DNA of 64,000 bases, from assembly GCA_902554745.1 (NCBI GenBank), contig CACDQA010000002.1:1-64000 (forward strand), read 5' to 3'. The stretch's first letter is position 1. Each line of letters begins with the position of its first letter. Made by a program: the position numbers and the translations under genes. The stretch is from an uncultured Pelagibacteraceae bacterium (GTDB lineage Bacteria; Pseudomonadota; Alphaproteobacteria; Pelagibacterales; Pelagibacteraceae). Below, one piece after another: positions 20,797 through 27,697 of the stretch. The notes under the pieces were generated by a model. The model saw only the letters and a list, made by a program, of their open reading frames with translations. It was not told the origin of the DNA and made no database searches.

Positions 20797-21570
20797 ATGA
20801 AAAAACTTAAACTGTTTGCTTTAGCAGCTATGGCTCTGATTGGATTTTCAGGTATAGCTATTGCAGCAGACGCAACGATGTTGATGCAAGATGACTTCGT
20901 AGGAATTTCATTCTGGGTTATCTCTATGGGAATGTTAGCAGCTACTGCTTTCTTTTTCATGGAAGCAGGCAATGTCGCATCAGGCTGGAGAACATCAGTT
21001 ATTGTTGCTGGTCTAGTAACTGGTATTGCATTCATACACTACATGTACATGAGAGAAGTATGGGTTGCTACTGGAGACTCGCCAACTGTTTACAGATACA
21101 TTGACTGGTTAATCACTGTGCCATTACAGATGGTAGAATTCTATTTAATTCTAGCAGCTATTAACAAAGCAAACTCTGGAATGTTCTGGAGATTGTTAAT
21201 TGGTTCATTAGTGATGCTAATCGGTGGATACTTAGGTGAAGCAGGATATATCAATGCTACACTTGGTTTCATCATCGGAATGGCAGGTTGGGTATACATT
21301 CTTTATGAAGTATTCTCAGGTGAAGCTGGTAAAGCTGCAGCGAAAAGTGGAAACAAGGCTCTTGTAACTGCTTTTGGTGCAATGAGAATGATCGTTACTG
21401 TAGGTTGGGCAATTTACCCATTAGGTTATGTATTTGGTTACTTAACTGGTGGTGTAGACGCTAACTCACTTAACGTCGTTTATAACTTAGCTGACTTCAT
21501 TAACAAAATTGCATTCGGTCTGGTAATTTGGGCTGCTGCAACTAGTTCTGCGGGCAGAAGAGCTAAGTAA
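20797..21570 (+). CDS. Proteorhodopsin, blue-absorbing type proton pump
   Basis: Seven-helix retinal protein that pumps protons out of the cell in light. A signal peptide (residues 1 to about 23) precedes the helices. The key residues are intact: proton acceptor D103 and donor E114 in RYIDWLITVPLQMVEF, retinal Schiff-base lysine K237 (NLADFINKIAFG), and H81, which pairs with the acceptor in relatives. The spectral tuning position (residue 105 of the original green proteorhodopsin) is Gln111 here, the blue-type residue. Codons ending in C (TAC, AAC, ATC, TTC) are more frequent than in neighbours and the ribosome site is strong, suggesting high expression. It is monocistronic, closed by a terminator. 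Retinal synthesis genes are not in the window. Confidence 0.97.
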   Translation: MKKLKLFALAAMALIGFSGIAIAADATMLMQDDFVGISFWVISMGMLAATAFFFMEAGNVASGWRTSVIVAGLVTGIAFIHYMYMREVWVATGDSPTVYRYIDWLITVPLQMVEFYLILAAINKANSGMFWRLLIGSLVMLIGGYLGEAGYINATLGFIIGMAGWVYILYEVFSGEAGKAAAKSGNKALVTAFGAMRMIVTVGWAIYPLGYVFGYLTGGVDANSLNVVYNLADFINKIAFGLVIWAAATSSAGRRAK

Positions 21571-21590
21571 TTTAGCTAAAATTTAAATTA

Positions 21591-21626
21591 AGGGCAGGTA
21601 CAATTTTGTGCTTGCCCTTTTTTTTT
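21591..21626 (+). terminator. Rho-independent terminator of proteorhodopsin
   Basis: An 11-base-pair stem (AGGGCAGGTAC with GTGCTTGCCCT, two G-T pairs) around the loop AATTTT is followed by a run of T. It lies 21 bases after the rhodopsin stop and separates that transcript from the desaturase operon. Confidence 0.92.
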
Positions 21627-21640
21627 GCCTTTATTAAATT

Positions 21641-21659
21641 ATGTATAATAACTATACAT
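21641..21659. promoter_or_regulatory. Inverted repeat overlapping a -10 box, desaturase operon
   Basis: ATGTATA and TATACAT form a perfect seven-base inverted repeat with a five-base spacer. The sequence contains TATAAT at 21644-21649, a perfect -10 hexamer, and ends 11 bases before the desaturase ATG. A dimeric repressor bound here would block transcription. No convincing -35 was found, and no Shine-Dalgarno precedes the ATG, so the leader would be very short. Confidence 0.5.
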
Positions 21660-21670
21660 AATTTTTACCT

Positions 21671-22672
21671 ATGGATGTTAAATTAGAAAAATGGCACAAA
21701 TGCCAAATTGATAAAGAAGTTCTTAAAGATCTTTCAAAGAAATCAGATATAAAAGGACTGCAACATGTTTCAGTTTTTTTTGGGCTATTATTAGTAACCG
21801 GAATTCTTGCATATCAAACTTGGGGCACATGGTGGTCAGTGTTTTGGTTTTTAATTTATGGAAATATTTATTCCTTCTCTAATCCACTATGGCATGAGAC
21901 AGGTCACAAAACTGCATTTCAATCAAAATTCTTAAACGAATTTTTTTATTACATCTCGTCTTACATGGCTAACTTTGAACCAACTAGATGGAGATACACA
22001 CACTTTGTTCATCATGGAAACACTTATTCAACAGAAAATCCTTTTGATCATGAAATTGAATATGGAAATAATTTAAAAGAAACACCAAAAAGGTTAATTA
22101 TAAATATAATTCCATTTTTGGATTTAGTTTATTTTAAAAAACATATTTCATTTGAAATTATTCAGCACGCTTTTGGAATTAAAACAAAGGTTATGCAAGA
22201 CAGCATCCCAGAAAATGCACAACCAAAAGCAATTTTTATTTCAAGAATTTATGTAGCTATTTGGCTTGTTATTATTTTATGGTCTATATTTGCCTCTTCT
22301 TGGATGCCTTTATTGTATTTTGTTTTACCCCAATTTTATGGAAAAACTTTACATAAACTTGTGGCTTTTACTCAGCATGCTGGTCTTGCAAGAAATATAA
22401 AAGATCATAGGGTTACATCACGTGAAATGTACTTAAATCCTATACTAAGTTTTTTATATTGGAAAATGGAATATCATTTAACGCATCACATGTTTCCTAC
22501 AGTTCCATCATATAATTTGGATAAATTACATCATCATATTAAAGATCAATTACCAAAACCAAATGACGGATTAATAGATGCTTACAAAGAGATTATTCCT
22601 GCTTTAATGAAGCAAAAAGTGAATAAAAGCTATTTTATAAAAAAAGAGCTACCCGAACTTCAAAATATTTAA
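21671..22672 (+). CDS. Membrane fatty acid desaturase family protein
   Basis: A 333-residue integral membrane di-iron enzyme with the three histidine boxes of the desaturase superfamily: HETGH (75-79), HFVHH (111-115) and HLTHH (269-273), plus H236 and a downstream LHHH. Hydrophobic spans lie around residues 33-70 and 187-223. It probably inserts a double bond or hydroxyl into an acyl chain or related lipid; the substrate is unknown. Downstream come a ferredoxin and a ferredoxin reductase, which could supply its electrons. Related members include rhizobitoxine-type and carotenoid-modifying enzymes, so a pigment substrate cannot be excluded. Confidence 0.8.
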   Translation: MDVKLEKWHKCQIDKEVLKDLSKKSDIKGLQHVSVFFGLLLVTGILAYQTWGTWWSVFWFLIYGNIYSFSNPLWHETGHKTAFQSKFLNEFFYYISSYMANFEPTRWRYTHFVHHGNTYSTENPFDHEIEYGNNLKETPKRLIINIIPFLDLVYFKKHISFEIIQHAFGIKTKVMQDSIPENAQPKAIFISRIYVAIWLVIILWSIFASSWMPLLYFVLPQFYGKTLHKLVAFTQHAGLARNIKDHRVTSREMYLNPILSFLYWKMEYHLTHHMFPTVPSYNLDKLHHHIKDQLPKPNDGLIDAYKEIIPALMKQKVNKSYFIKKELPELQNI

Positions 22673-22733
22673 AAATACACTAAGTATGATTTTACTTACT
22701 TGTCCAATTTAGATAAGAAACTATATATAACCT

Positions 22734-23054
22734 ATGGTAAAAATTACATACCACACTCATGATAACAAAACACATACTGTCGATGTTCAGAAGGGTTTAA
22801 CTGTAATGGAAGGTGCAATACAGAATGATATTCCAGGAATTGATGCTGATTGTGGAGGAGGAATGGCGTGTGCTACTTGCCATGTTTATGTCAAAGAAGA
22901 ATGGTTAGATAAACTTCCAGCTAAAGAAGATGGTGAAGAAGATATGCTTGATATGGCATTTGAACCAAAAAATAATAGCAGATTGAGCTGTCAGTTAATA
23001 GTTTCAGATGAGCTAGATGGTTTAGAAGTTAATATTCCATCAAAGCAAGGTTAG
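22734..23054 (+). CDS. 2Fe-2S ferredoxin
   Basis: Small soluble electron carrier (106 residues) of the adrenodoxin/putidaredoxin-like group. Cluster ligands are C40, C46 and C49 in [16 protein letters not shown] and C86 in RLSCQL. That group usually serves oxygenases and desaturases. It sits 61 bases after the desaturase, and its stop touches the start of the FAD reductase gene. The neighbours suggest it moves electrons from the reductase to the desaturase. Confidence 0.94.
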
Positions 23055-24071
23055 ATGAATAAAACAGATGTATTAATTATTGGAGCAGGGCCAACAGGGT
23101 TGTTTTGTGCTCATCAACTTGGAATTATAGGATTGAGCTGTGAGATAGTCGACAATCTTGATAAAGCAGGAGGACAATGCATCGAACTTTATCCTGACAA
23201 ACCAATTTATGATATCCCAGCCGTACCAGAGTGCACTGGGGAAGAATTAACCAATAATCTTCTAAAACAAATCAAACCTTTCAATGTTAAATTTCATTTA
23301 AATGAAAGAGTAGAAGAGTTAAAAAAAAATCAAAATAGATGGCATGTTAAAACTTCAGGTGGAGTTGAATTTGATGTTGCGGCTATCGTTATAGCTGGGG
23401 GCGTTGGTTCTTTTGAACCTAGAAAATTTCCAGTAAAGGAATGTGAAAAATTTGAGGGAAATTCACTATTTTATTCAATTAAAGATAAATCAATATTTAA
23501 AGATAAAACTATTTCAATATTTGGTGGAGGAGACTCTGCTTTAGATTGGGCTATTGAACTATCAAACGTCTCTAAAGTAAATTTAATTCATAGAAGAGAT
23601 GGTTTTAGTGGAGCGGAAGCCAGCGTTCAAAAAGTAAAAGAGCTTAATGATCAAGGAAAATTAAATTTATTTACAAAATATCAAATGGATTCTGTAAGTG
23701 GAGATAAAAAAATTGAATCTGTTAAAATAAAACATGACGAAGGTGAAATTAAAGAGATTAAATCTGATTATGTCTTGGGTTTCTTTGGTTTAATCATGCA
23801 ACTTGGCCCTATTTTAGATTGGGGTTTAAATATAAATAAAAAAACTGTCGAAGTTAATACTGAAAATTTTGAAACTAATGTACAAGGAATATTTGCAATT
23901 GGTGATATTTGCTCCTACCCAGGCAAATTAAAATTAATTCTTTCAGGATTTCATGAGGGTGCATTGGCAGCAAGAGGTTGTTTTAAATATGCAAAACCAG
24001 ATGAAAAATTAAGATTTGAATTCACAACAACATCTAAAGCTGCACAAGAAAGACTTGGAATTAAAAAATGA
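23055..24071 (+). CDS. Ferredoxin--NADP+ reductase, thioredoxin-reductase-like type
   Basis: FAD/NADPH enzyme of 338 residues with an N-terminal FAD dinucleotide fold (IIGAGPTGLFCAHQLG) and a second NADPH fold (FGGGDSALDWAIEL, near residue 157). The thioredoxin-reductase CxxC active site is absent, and the AGGQCIELYPDKPIYDIPA segment is typical of YumC-type ferredoxin reductases. The C-terminal part has GDICSYPGK and a tail expected in this family. It starts directly after the ferredoxin stop and overlaps the GST start as ATGA, which supports one operon for electron transfer. Confidence 0.93.
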   Translation: MNKTDVLIIGAGPTGLFCAHQLGIIGLSCEIVDNLDKAGGQCIELYPDKPIYDIPAVPECTGEELTNNLLKQIKPFNVKFHLNERVEELKKNQNRWHVKTSGGVEFDVAAIVIAGGVGSFEPRKFPVKECEKFEGNSLFYSIKDKSIFKDKTISIFGGGDSALDWAIELSNVSKVNLIHRRDGFSGAEASVQKVKELNDQGKLNLFTKYQMDSVSGDKKIESVKIKHDEGEIKEIKSDYVLGFFGLIMQLGPILDWGLNINKKTVEVNTENFETNVQGIFAIGDICSYPGKLKLILSGFHEGALAARGCFKYAKPDEKLRFEFTTTSKAAQERLGIKK

Positions 24072-24694
24072 TAGAACTTTTTTCTGCTAATACTCCTAAT
24101 GGATGGAAAATTAGTATTATACTTGAAGAAATTGGTTATGAGTACAAAGTAACCAAAGTCGATTTAGGTAAAGATGAACAATTCAAACCAGAATTTACAA
24201 AGCTAAGTCCTTTTGGAAAAATTCCGGTGATCATTGATCATGAGAACAATAAAAGCATCTTCGAGTCTGGCGCAATATTAATGTATTTAGCTGACAAAAG
24301 TGGAAAGCTTTATAATCAAAAAGATAGACTAGTTATTAATCAATGGTTGATGGCGCAAATGGGAACAGTTGGACCAATGATAGGTCAACATCATCAGTTC
24401 CATCACTACAATCCAGGTAAAAGTGAATTTGGTGAAGAAAGATATTTTAAAATTACAAAAAGAATTTATGGAGAATTAGACGCAAGATTAAAGGTGTCAA
24501 AATTTCTTGCAGGACCTGATTACACAATCGCTGATATTGCAACTTGGCCATGGATAGCAAGACATGAGTGGCATGATATTGGTTTAAAAAATTACAAAAA
24601 TCTATCTAGATGGTATTTAGAGATTTCTGAGCGAGAAGCAGTGGTCAGAGGTTATAGTTTTATGGATAAGAATGCTAAAATTCCTAAACTCTAA
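24068..24694 (+). CDS. Glutathione S-transferase family protein
   Basis: A 208-residue protein with a thioredoxin-fold N-terminal domain (IELFSANTPNGWKISIILEE) and an all-alpha C-terminal domain (DYTIADIATWPW). It resembles the YfcG/Nu-class disulfide reductases, where Thr/Asn near the N-terminus (here NTPNGWK) binds glutathione. It may reduce disulfides or detoxify electrophiles. It is coupled to the ferredoxin reductase by an ATGA overlap and is the last gene of the redox operon. Confidence 0.88.
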   Translation: MIELFSANTPNGWKISIILEEIGYEYKVTKVDLGKDEQFKPEFTKLSPFGKIPVIIDHENNKSIFESGAILMYLADKSGKLYNQKDRLVINQWLMAQMGTVGPMIGQHHQFHHYNPGKSEFGEERYFKITKRIYGELDARLKVSKFLAGPDYTIADIATWPWIARHEWHDIGLKNYKNLSRWYLEISEREAVVRGYSFMDKNAKIPKL

Positions 24695-24698
24695 AATT

Positions 24699-24794
24699 TT
24701 ACCCAAATAATCTATAAAGAGTACTAAGAATTCCATAACCTGAAAATTCAATAGCAACAATAATTATAATTATTAAAACTAATTTTTTATTCAT
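24699..24794 (-). CDS. Putative 31-residue single-pass membrane micropeptide
   Basis: Not in the ORF track. The frame reads MNKKLVLIIIIIVAIEFSG and continues to a 31-residue product: two lysines, a membrane helix, and a short tail YRLFG. Its ATG overlaps the stop of the preceding 38-residue ORF as ATGA, the same coupling used by real gene pairs elsewhere in this window. It ends 4 bases from the convergent GST gene's stop. I do not recognise the family. Function is unknown. Confidence 0.5.
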   Translation of the reverse strand: MNKKLVLIIIIIVAIEFSGYGILSTLYRLFG

Positions 24795-24907
24795 TTTAAA
24801 AACAAATATAGCAACAGCACAATCCAAAAGAAAGGATAGTAAAAATAAATATATTTCTTAGCAAATAGGAATGAGATTGAATTTTGCTTAGATGATTTCT
24901 TTTTCAT
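24791..24907 (-). CDS. Putative 38-residue membrane micropeptide after dksA
   Basis: Not in the ORF track. A basic N-terminus (MKKKSSKQNS) is followed by one aromatic membrane helix (YFYYPFFWIVLLLYLFL), 38 residues in all. The ATG lies three bases after the dksA stop, and the stop overlaps the next micro-ORF start as ATGA. Gene-tight spacing on both sides and a plausible positive-inside membrane topology argue for real translation. The family and function are unknown to me. Confidence 0.55.
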   Translation of the reverse strand: MKKKSSKQNSISFLFAKKYIYFYYPFFWIVLLLYLFLK

Positions 24908-24910
24908 TTT

Positions 24911-25426
24911 TTAGTCATCTGCATGAACTTTTTCTTCTTTTTCATGCTTTTCTTGTGCGGCAATAGTATATTTAGCAACAGGTCTTGCCATTAACCTTTT
25001 TAATCCAATTGGTTCTGCTGTATCCAAACAATAACCATAAGTATCCTCTCTAATTCTTCTTAAAGCTTTATCAATTTCTGAAATTAATTTAATTTGTCTA
25101 TTGATTGCTTTCATCTCTACATTGCTATCAATATAGGAGTTAGCTTGGTCAACAATATCTGCAGAAATATTATTGTCATCCATCCCACCATTATAAAGAG
25201 CTTCATTGTTAGCTTTGATTAATTCTTTTTTCCATTCAGTTAGTCTAATTCTGAAATATACTTTATGTTTTTCACACATATATTTTTCAGTGTCTTTTGG
25301 AACATAAGTTTTTGAAATTTTTACAGGACCTTTGGGCGCAACTTTAGCTGTAGTTGGTTTTGCTTTACTTACAACTTTAGTTTTTGGTTTTGATACTTTT
25401 TTCTTTGCTTTAGCAGTCTTCGGCAT
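24911..25426 (-). CDS. dksA: DksA/TraR-family RNA polymerase regulator
   Basis: DksA binds in the RNA polymerase secondary channel and, with ppGpp, retunes rRNA and amino-acid promoters. This 171-residue protein has a lysine/alanine-rich N-terminal extension (about 35 residues), a coiled-coil region (roughly 50-130) and the C-terminal DksA segment YGYCLDTAEPIGLKRLMARP. Only one of the four zinc-finger cysteines (in YGYC) is left; alphaproteobacterial DksA proteins commonly lack several. Two micro-ORFs follow immediately downstream. It diverges from the GT39 gene with 78 bases between them. Confidence 0.9.
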   Translation of the reverse strand: MPKTAKAKKKVSKPKTKVVSKAKPTTAKVAPKGPVKISKTYVPKDTEKYMCEKHKVYFRIRLTEWKKELIKANNEALYNGGMDDNNISADIVDQANSYIDSNVEMKAINRQIKLISEIDKALRRIREDTYGYCLDTAEPIGLKRLMARPVAKYTIAAQEKHEKEEKVHADD

Positions 25427-25504: not shown

Positions 25505-26827
25505 ATGACCATTAATAACAAAAATATTGATAATGTTTTTTATATTTTTGTTACAGCTCATCTAATTTTTTGGACTTTGATTCCATCATTTACAAATCAT
25601 AATTTACCACTGGATACTATCGAAGCTTTAGCTTGGGGAAGTAATTTAGATTGGGGTTTTAATAAGCATCCACCCATGAGCGCTTTCTTTCCGGAAATAT
25701 TTTTTCAAATTTTTGGACCACAAGATTGGGTTTATTATTTATTAAGTCAAATTTTTGTAATTATATCTTTTTATTATGTTTATAAATTTTCAAATGAAAT
25801 ATTTAACAATAAATTATTAGGTTTAATTTCTGTCTTACTAATTGAAGCAATTTATTTTTACAATTTCACCACACCTGAGTTTAATGTAAATGTATGTCAA
25901 TTACCTTTCTGGTCTTTAACAGTTTATTACTCCTGGAAAATATATAGCGGAAAAGAAATAAAGTTTTTAGATTGTTTTTTAGTAGGTCTGTTTGCTGCTT
26001 TTGGCTTCCTATCAAAATATCTATTTATTTATTTATTAGTTTCAATTGACCTTTTATTTATTTATTTAATTTTTTTTAAAAAGGAGAGAAAGTTTGATTT
26101 TAAATATCTTATTACTCTTGAAGTCTTCTTGGTAGTTTTAGTCCCACATTTAATTTGGTTAAATAACAATGAATATGTTACAATTACTTATGGATTAGCT
26201 AGAACTGGCATAGAACAATCTAGCTTTATAGATAATATTAAATTTCCACTAATCTTTTTATTCAAACAAGTAGGAATAATAATTCCATTTTTTATTTTAA
26301 TTTGGTTGCTAGTAAAAAAAATTAAATTTAATTTAAATTTAAAGGACAAAAAATTATTATTTTTATTAGCAATTAATATTTTGCCAATTTTTTTAATGTT
26401 TTTAACATCTTTAATTACTGGATCAAAAATAAGAACTATGTGGATGACTCCTTTTTATTTGTTTTTTGGCACATTATTTGTTTATTCATTGCAAGCTCAA
26501 GTTAATCTTAAAAAGCTAAAACCATTCATGATTGGATTGATTTTCTTCTTTTTTTTATCACCAACTCTTTATGCTTATGTTTCAATTTCAAAAAACGATA
26601 AAAGAACAGATTATCCAGGAAAAGAAATTGCGATAAAAACTCAATATGCTTGGGATCAACAATTTAATTCAAAAATAAATGTAGTTTTAGGTGATGAATG
26701 GAATGCTGGAAACTTATCTTACCATTTAAAATCACGACCAGCTTGGGAAGGCTTTGTTGAAAGAAAAAAACTTGATCAATTGAAAGATTACATGTGCCTT
26801 GATAGTATTTGTGTAGGTTCAAGATAG
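25505..26827 (+). CDS. GT39-type (PMT/ArnT-like) membrane glycosyltransferase
   Basis: A 440-residue polytopic membrane protein of the GT-C class. The first outer loop carries the acidic motif DTIEALAWGSNLDWGFNKHP, where PMT_2/ArnT family proteins hold their catalytic Asp/Glu. About ten hydrophobic segments follow, and a short soluble C-terminal domain ends the protein. Such enzymes transfer a sugar from a polyprenyl-phosphate donor to lipid or protein outside the inner membrane. It abuts a GT2 gene (no spacer), which could make the lipid-linked sugar donor. Confidence 0.82.
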   Translation: MTINNKNIDNVFYIFVTAHLIFWTLIPSFTNHNLPLDTIEALAWGSNLDWGFNKHPPMSAFFPEIFFQIFGPQDWVYYLLSQIFVIISFYYVYKFSNEIFNNKLLGLISVLLIEAIYFYNFTTPEFNVNVCQLPFWSLTVYYSWKIYSGKEIKFLDCFLVGLFAAFGFLSKYLFIYLLVSIDLLFIYLIFFKKERKFDFKYLITLEVFLVVLVPHLIWLNNNEYVTITYGLARTGIEQSSFIDNIKFPLIFLFKQVGIIIPFFILIWLLVKKIKFNLNLKDKKLLFLLAINILPIFLMFLTSLITGSKIRTMWMTPFYLFFGTLFVYSLQAQVNLKKLKPFMIGLIFFFFLSPTLYAYVSISKNDKRTDYPGKEIAIKTQYAWDQQFNSKINVVLGDEWNAGNLSYHLKSRPAWEGFVERKKLDQLKDYMCLDSICVGSR

Positions 26828-27697
26828 ATGAGATATCTAATTTTAATTCCAATATACAACGACAGAGTTTCATTAAAATTACTGATTGAGAATATCAATA
26901 GAGAAATAAAAGATTTAAATCACGATATATCGTTGGTTGTTATTAATGATGCTTCTTCTCAACAAATAGTTGATAACTACCCAAATGTTGAGAATATTAA
27001 TTCTATTGAGATAGTTAATATGAAAGAGAACAGAGGCCATACAAGATGTATTGCATCTGGCTTGAAGTATATCTTTGAAAAAAAAGAATTTGATTATGTA
27101 ATTCCAATGGACGGAGATGGAGAAGATCGACCTGAAGAAATTAAAAATTTTATTAATGTTAGTGAAAATTCTGAAGGAAAATCAATTGTTGGAGAAAGAG
27201 TAAAAAGATCAGAAAGTTTATTTTTTAAAATATGTTATCTATTTCATAAATTTTTAACTTTATCATTTACTGGACAATCAATTAAGTTTGGAAACTTTAC
27301 CTGTTTGTCAAAATTGACGGTTGAAAAAATGATTAAGGAAAAAGCTACATGGAATAGTTTTTCAGGTTCACTAAAAAAAACAGAAAAAGAATTATTGACT
27401 GTTCCATCAATAAGAGGGCCAAGATATTACGGTCCTTCACAGATGAGTTTTTTTAAATTATTAAAGCATTCACTCGCAATTATAAGCGTATTCAGAAAAA
27501 CTGTTCTTGTTCGATCAGCTTTGTTTATTATTTTTTATATATTACTTATCAAAAGCTACGCTTCAGTAATTACTTCATTCCCATTAGTTTTGTTATTGAT
27601 AATGATTTATTCTATTTCTAGTTTAGCTTTAAGAGAAAATATTGAGGAATTTAATAATTCCTTAACAAATATCCACGATATTGATAAAATAAAATAA
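26828..27697 (+). CDS. Family 2 glycosyltransferase (polyprenyl-phosphate sugar synthase-like)
   Basis: The 289-residue protein has a GT-A domain beginning LILIPIYNDRVSLKLLIENI, with nucleotide-binding VVINDASS and the metal motif MDGDGEDRPEEI. Two C-terminal hydrophobic segments (near 235-270) would anchor it in the membrane. The arrangement resembles dolichol-phosphate mannosyltransferase and bactoprenol glycosyltransferases. It begins on the base after the GT39 stop and lies two bases before the DUF1800 gene, so all are likely one transcript. A supply role for the GT39 enzyme is inferred. Confidence 0.85.
   Translation: MRYLILIPIYNDRVSLKLLIENINREIKDLNHDISLVVINDASSQQIVDNYPNVENINSIEIVNMKENRGHTRCIASGLKYIFEKKEFDYVIPMDGDGEDRPEEIKNFINVSENSEGKSIVGERVKRSESLFFKICYLFHKFLTLSFTGQSIKFGNFTCLSKLTVEKMIKEKATWNSFSGSLKKTEKELLTVPSIRGPRYYGPSQMSFFKLLKHSLAIISVFRKTVLVRSALFIIFYILLIKSYASVITSFPLVLLLIMIYSISSLALRENIEEFNNSLTNIHDIDKIK

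Follow-up and report, generated by a model that had tools for sequence, protein, structure and literature searches.

Small single-span proteins of the AcrZ, KdpF and MgtS type modulate a larger membrane protein, which is sometimes encoded far away. Subunit IV of the bacterial aa3 cytochrome oxidase is an accessory, alphaproteobacterial protein of ~50 aa that likewise spans the membrane once. CydX is a 37 aa subunit of cytochrome bd oxidase (PMC4325964). In a stretch of 64,000 nucleotides from an uncultured Pelagibacteraceae bacterium (contig CACDQA010000002.1, positions 1 to 64,000; hereafter the window), two short reading frames behind dksA, here termed ORF1 and ORF2, invite comparison with these systems. 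Like CydX and comparable small oxidase subunits, both fall below 50 aa, the size of small membrane-complex subunits, and keep a few invariant residues across diverged homologues; such genes often go unannotated. CydX is tied to the cytochrome bd genes (cydAB), whereas no genomic neighbour of ORF1 and ORF2 is constant across genomes. Window neighbours were tested against Pfam and the remaining neighbour names were read by eye from protein starts; no cydAB-like gene was seen among those inspected by eye. The AcrZ, KdpF and MgtS type resembles ORF1 and ORF2 in size and single span with no detectable homology, but ORF1 and ORF2 are two distinct co-occurring peptides whose genes overlap in one clade. 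The aa3 oxidase subunit IV is similar in kind, and neither ORF matched such a model or PDB chain.

Searches of Pfam, NCBIfam, PHROGs and PADLOC returned chance-level matches only, with nothing recognisable, and no CydX appeared among Pfam or NCBIfam matches up to E=10. In the PDB, ORF1 had no match and the only match of ORF2 was a xanthan lyase (E=0.93), so neither ORF fell under a profile of a solved or curated small subunit. A literature search found no paper on these genes. Since ORF1 and ORF2 fit the general small single-span kind and belong with neither CydX nor the curated small subunits, we regard them as a new family pair. The locus has the following parts:

24911..25426, minus strand: dksA, 171 aa (Pfam PF21157, E=8.7e-12; PF01258, E=6e-8)
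24791..24907, minus strand: ORF1, 38 aa, MKKKSSKQNSISFLFAKKYIYFYYPFFWIVLLLYLFLK, predicted single-span membrane protein, conserved frame, pN/pS 0.08
24791..24794, minus strand: ATGA stop/start overlap of ORF1 and ORF2, offset -4 in 73/74 sequences scored
24699..24794, minus strand: ORF2, 31 aa, MNKKLVLIIIIIVAIEFSGYGILSTLYRLFG, predicted single-span protein, conserved frame, pN/pS 0.07
24068..24694, plus strand: convergent glutathione S-transferase-like (GST-like) gene, GST_N/GST_C Pfam matches

ORF1 starts with an ATG 3 nt past the dksA stop, and the ORF2 stop lies 4 nt from that of the convergent GST-like gene (3-7 nt in the 72 loci compared). The whole interval from the dksA stop to the GST-like stop (24694) measures 216 bases. 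The 3-nt gap and the 216 bases, together with the lengths and the ATGA overlap, had been given in a preliminary description and proved exact to the base. The overlap is presumed to be a termination-reinitiation site.

The window is AT-rich and its list of open reading frames contains dozens of spurious frames of 25-60 aa. Since chance frames of this size are so abundant here, comparative evidence was needed, and we compared 80 dksA loci from public Pelagibacteraceae genomes. ORF1 and ORF2 frames lay behind dksA in 77 of the 80, and 74 sequences with both frames, the window included, were scored automatically for the overlap. Four other loci have the frames with shifted starts or stops (L001, L048, L078, L080). 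In L001 and L048 the usual ATG is lost and the frame is open back to an in-frame ATG within the last dksA codons, and in L080 the TGA has become TGG, with ORF2 beginning ATGGAT. Among the unique sequences of 72 of equal length, pS and pN were 0.546 and 0.045 for ORF1 and 0.451 and 0.032 for ORF2, with 95% codon-bootstrap ranges of pN/pS of 0.036-0.144 and 0.029-0.130, respectively; the C-terminal 120 codons of dksA gave 0.026 for comparison. Variability at the three codon positions (0.088/0.034/0.288 for ORF1 and 0.078/0.001/0.297 for ORF2) followed the pattern expected of coding DNA. The signature of purifying selection was absent from both other forward frames at each ORF, and the single reverse frame with a low ratio carried a mean of 3.1 (ORF1) or 1.8 (ORF2) stops per sequence.

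The pN/pS values match those of a protein gene on which purifying selection acts strongly, and that ORF1 and ORF2 are real, previously unannotated genes is settled as far as sequence allows. Frameshifts, stop codons or a lack of codon-wise conservation in relatives had been named in the preliminary description as grounds for discarding the frames; they were looked for in this comparison, and both the coding frames and their codon-wise conservation hold. AT-rich DNA commonly holds short open frames, which lends a non-genic origin, by chance or as a conserved RNA element, its initial appeal. Against it stand the codon-wise conservation and the high synonymous divergence, the latter arguing against a conserved RNA element, and Rfam gave nothing at or above gathering score around the locus. 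We dropped the RNA-element reading on the codon-level signal and the Rfam result, and consider a non-genic interval of either kind to have a negligible probability.

Hydropathy and AlphaFold2 concur in placing one helix in ORF1 and one in ORF2. The N-terminus of ORF1 is strongly basic and leads into a helix rich in aromatic residues (modelled at residues 9-37, mean pLDDT 79; KD19 maximum 1.81), with a charge of +6 before the span and +1 after it. ORF2 consists of KK, a very hydrophobic helix (residues 3-30, mean pLDDT 90; KD19 maximum 2.61) and R/K near the end. Each is thus predicted to be one membrane-spanning helix with a basic N-terminus, and the charge distribution suggests an N-in topology. 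Both show the marks of a small single-span membrane protein, namely no more than about 50 aa, one helix of membrane length, a positive N-terminus and a conserved coding frame. The earlier view of the interval as encoding two membrane micropeptides is therefore strongly supported by the comparison, with membrane placement as a prediction. In ORF1, K18, Y23, Y24 and W28 are invariant across 28 diverged members and form a motif at the membrane entry (K..YY...W); the tryptophan is substituted in still more distant members (G121, G146, G217, G234). ORF2 carries a mid-helix I-E-x-S-G-x-G, in full IE[LF]SGxGI, in which I, E, S, G and G are invariant in 25/25 diverged homologues. Such invariant polar residues within the membrane are more than a simple anchor or a random hydrophobic peptide would need. 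In the lineage of G121 and G146 (L273, L274), the ORF1 homologue opens a longer, 73-codon frame with an altered helix (YYAAAII), possibly a divergent or extended form of ORF1.

Their size, basic N-terminus and single hydrophobic helix also make ORF1 and ORF2 resemble hydrophobic peptides of the type I toxin kind, or else a membrane toxin with its partner, and their loss among close genomes is patchy. Their slow evolution (pN/pS ~0.08), the invariant polar motif, their single copy in the window's genome (59% complete) and the coupling-type placement behind a housekeeping gene all speak against a toxin, and PADLOC, Pfam and NCBIfam gave no toxin match. We hold a toxin function to be improbable.

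In the profile searches, most Pelagibacter genomes carried both ORFs, as did sister genus g5; sister genus g6 had only ORF1. These searches gave no convincing match in genera g2-g4 of the same family (f1) or in the second Pelagibacterales family (f2). A search across 240 genomes of Alphaproteobacteria, 3 of them Pelagibacteraceae, returned only chance-level fragments outside the family, and a scan of viral contigs with ORF1 found no relative. Within this range the genomic location varies. The pair lies directly behind dksA in the window's arrangement; elsewhere it adjoins the GST gene, with an ABC transporter or other genes inserted between it and dksA (G013, where it stands beside a TPR-protein gene, and G024, G174, G204, G209), or lies 5-6.5 kb away from dksA in some Pelagibacter genomes. 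It is found behind carB in G015, G159 and G236, the last two of which also have a MOSC-like gene there. The pair is split in G120, G157, G107 and genus-g5 genomes. ORF2 stands between two glycosyltransferase genes divergent from dksA in G120, G157 and G105, and split-off ORF1 adjoins agmatinase-like, aldehyde dehydrogenase/CcdA-like, SDR or thiolase genes.

This distribution bears on the suggestion that ORF1 and ORF2 are stress peptides or have a functional tie to dksA, for example in the stringent response. The pair does sit right behind dksA, at coupling-type spacing, in most close relatives. Diverged relatives, however, carry the ORFs away from dksA in carB, thiolase, aldehyde dehydrogenase/CcdA-like, agmatinase-like and rhodopsin neighbourhoods, often apart from each other, and some dksA loci have no pair: the stops of dksA and GST are immediately adjacent in G020, G190 and locus L013. 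Because the same genes occupy unrelated loci in other Pelagibacteraceae, a dksA or stress role is unsupported; this part of the preliminary description did not survive the comparison, and we regard the idea as largely refuted already and very unlikely. Judged from these arrangements, dksA and the pair are linked by position alone.

The neighbour itself is a recognisable DksA. It has a basic N-terminal extension, then the DksA coiled-coil and C4 zinc-finger domains; DksA_N (PF21157) and zf-dskA_traR (PF01258) both exceed their gathering scores, and the protein falls under the NCBIfam TIGR02420 equivalog cutoff (98.7 vs 115.5 bits). The lysine-rich extension differs in length among relatives, some of which begin ~33 residues later. 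Divergent from dksA in the window are a PMT_2 glycosyltransferase gene (25505-26827) and a GT2 glycosyltransferase gene (26828-27697), and in many other genomes the exact site of ORF2 is between these two. The interval between dksA and GST (24695-24910 in the window; loci L178, L172, L039, L077, L153, L170) resembles a small insertion hot spot, holding in different Pelagibacter genomes the peptide pair, an ABC transporter, MOSC-like genes, another gene or nothing.

Proteorhodopsin is a further neighbour to be weighed. The window encodes, at 20797-24694, proteorhodopsin and behind it a fatty-acid-desaturase-like protein, a 2Fe-2S ferredoxin, a pyridine-nucleotide reductase and GST, and the order ferredoxin-reductase-GST near rhodopsin is maintained in many relatives. 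ORF1 and ORF2 might be accessory subunits of proteorhodopsin or of its electron-transfer neighbours: the window's pair lies ~3 kb from rhodopsin, and in G106 (genus g5) ORF1 lies between proteorhodopsin and ferredoxin, with ORF2 ~4 kb from rhodopsin. Yet the rhodopsin-ferredoxin-reductase cluster is present without either peptide in G026 and G125, and ORF1 is far from rhodopsin in other lineages, which leaves such a role with little likelihood.

Among 182 genomes of genera g1 and g5, both genes were found in 143, neither in 21, ORF1 only in 12 and ORF2 only in 6, counts that are approximate since the ORF1 list comes from two models on partly different genome sets and drafts lose genes. The co-occurrence gives a Fisher p of ~4e-14, uncorrected for phylogeny, and in 58 of the 143 genomes with both genes the two are unlinked. 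ORF1 occurs alone in the lineages G128, G132 and G201 as well as in genus g6, and ORF2 alone in G133 and in G486 (the genome of L077); neither ORF can strictly require the other, given these lineages. Four single-contig genomes rated 99-100% complete (G005, G011, G020, G026) yielded neither gene, and the pair is therefore dispensable, an accessory rather than an essential trait.

The most serious rival treats the two peptides as small membrane regulators that act independently, each on a target of its own; they would have become neighbours by chance, and linkage alone would keep them paired in the window's clade. This rival draws on the genomes with a single ORF and on the unrelated, separate loci of the two in many others. 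However, the 58 unlinked genomes retain both, and just 18 of the 182 have one alone, some of these owing to contig ends (e.g. G080). We consider independence rather unlikely, though clearly better placed than the readings weighed above. Genes kept together while unlinked show the pattern of a functional pair, which also removes dksA as a necessary partner, and ORF1 and ORF2 probably work together in the membrane and not with dksA.

Our preferred explanation, to which we give about an even chance, is that ORF1 and ORF2 are a lineage-specific pair that forms a non-essential subunit, stabilizing or regulatory, of some larger inner-membrane protein whose gene lies elsewhere. Both ORFs would share the dksA transcript, ORF1 being translated right after dksA and ribosomes reinitiating at the ATGA overlap to translate ORF2, with dksA contributing only its promoter and translational coupling in the window's clade. 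Tight packing speaks for this explanation: the ORF1 start lies only a few nt past the end of dksA, the overlap is 4 nt, and 3-7 nt remain before the convergent stop. Both peptides would enter the inner membrane with the N-terminus in and the C-terminus out, and could associate there, ORF1 by its aromatic, basic side at the membrane entry (KK..YY...W) and ORF2 by its intramembrane side of Glu and small residues (IE[LF]SGxGI). The pair might then stabilize or regulate the larger protein. The earlier suggestion that the peptides are subunits of a membrane complex or regulate one fits these results and stands as the best inference; no partner complex was found among the genomic neighbours inspected. 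Alternatively, the two could form a SAR11-specific two-helix device, a minimal functional unit in its own right, such as a sensor or a path for ions or protons, and not the decoration of a known complex. In this device the invariant Glu within the ORF2 span would face the tyrosine- and tryptophan-rich helix of ORF1. We think this very improbable; if true, it would be a working membrane protein made from two separately encoded helices of 30-45 residues.

SAR11 bacteria are among the most abundant groups of cells in the ocean and have highly streamlined genomes. Given this abundance and streamlining, the retention of ORF1 and ORF2 in most genomes of the main genus suggests that the pair probably has a useful function. 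Since neither family has a Pfam or NCBIfam model, annotation pipelines likely miss both. The natural presence and absence of the pair in complete genomes, together with the lineages in which the two genes are split, make a search for their partner by phyletic profiling feasible.
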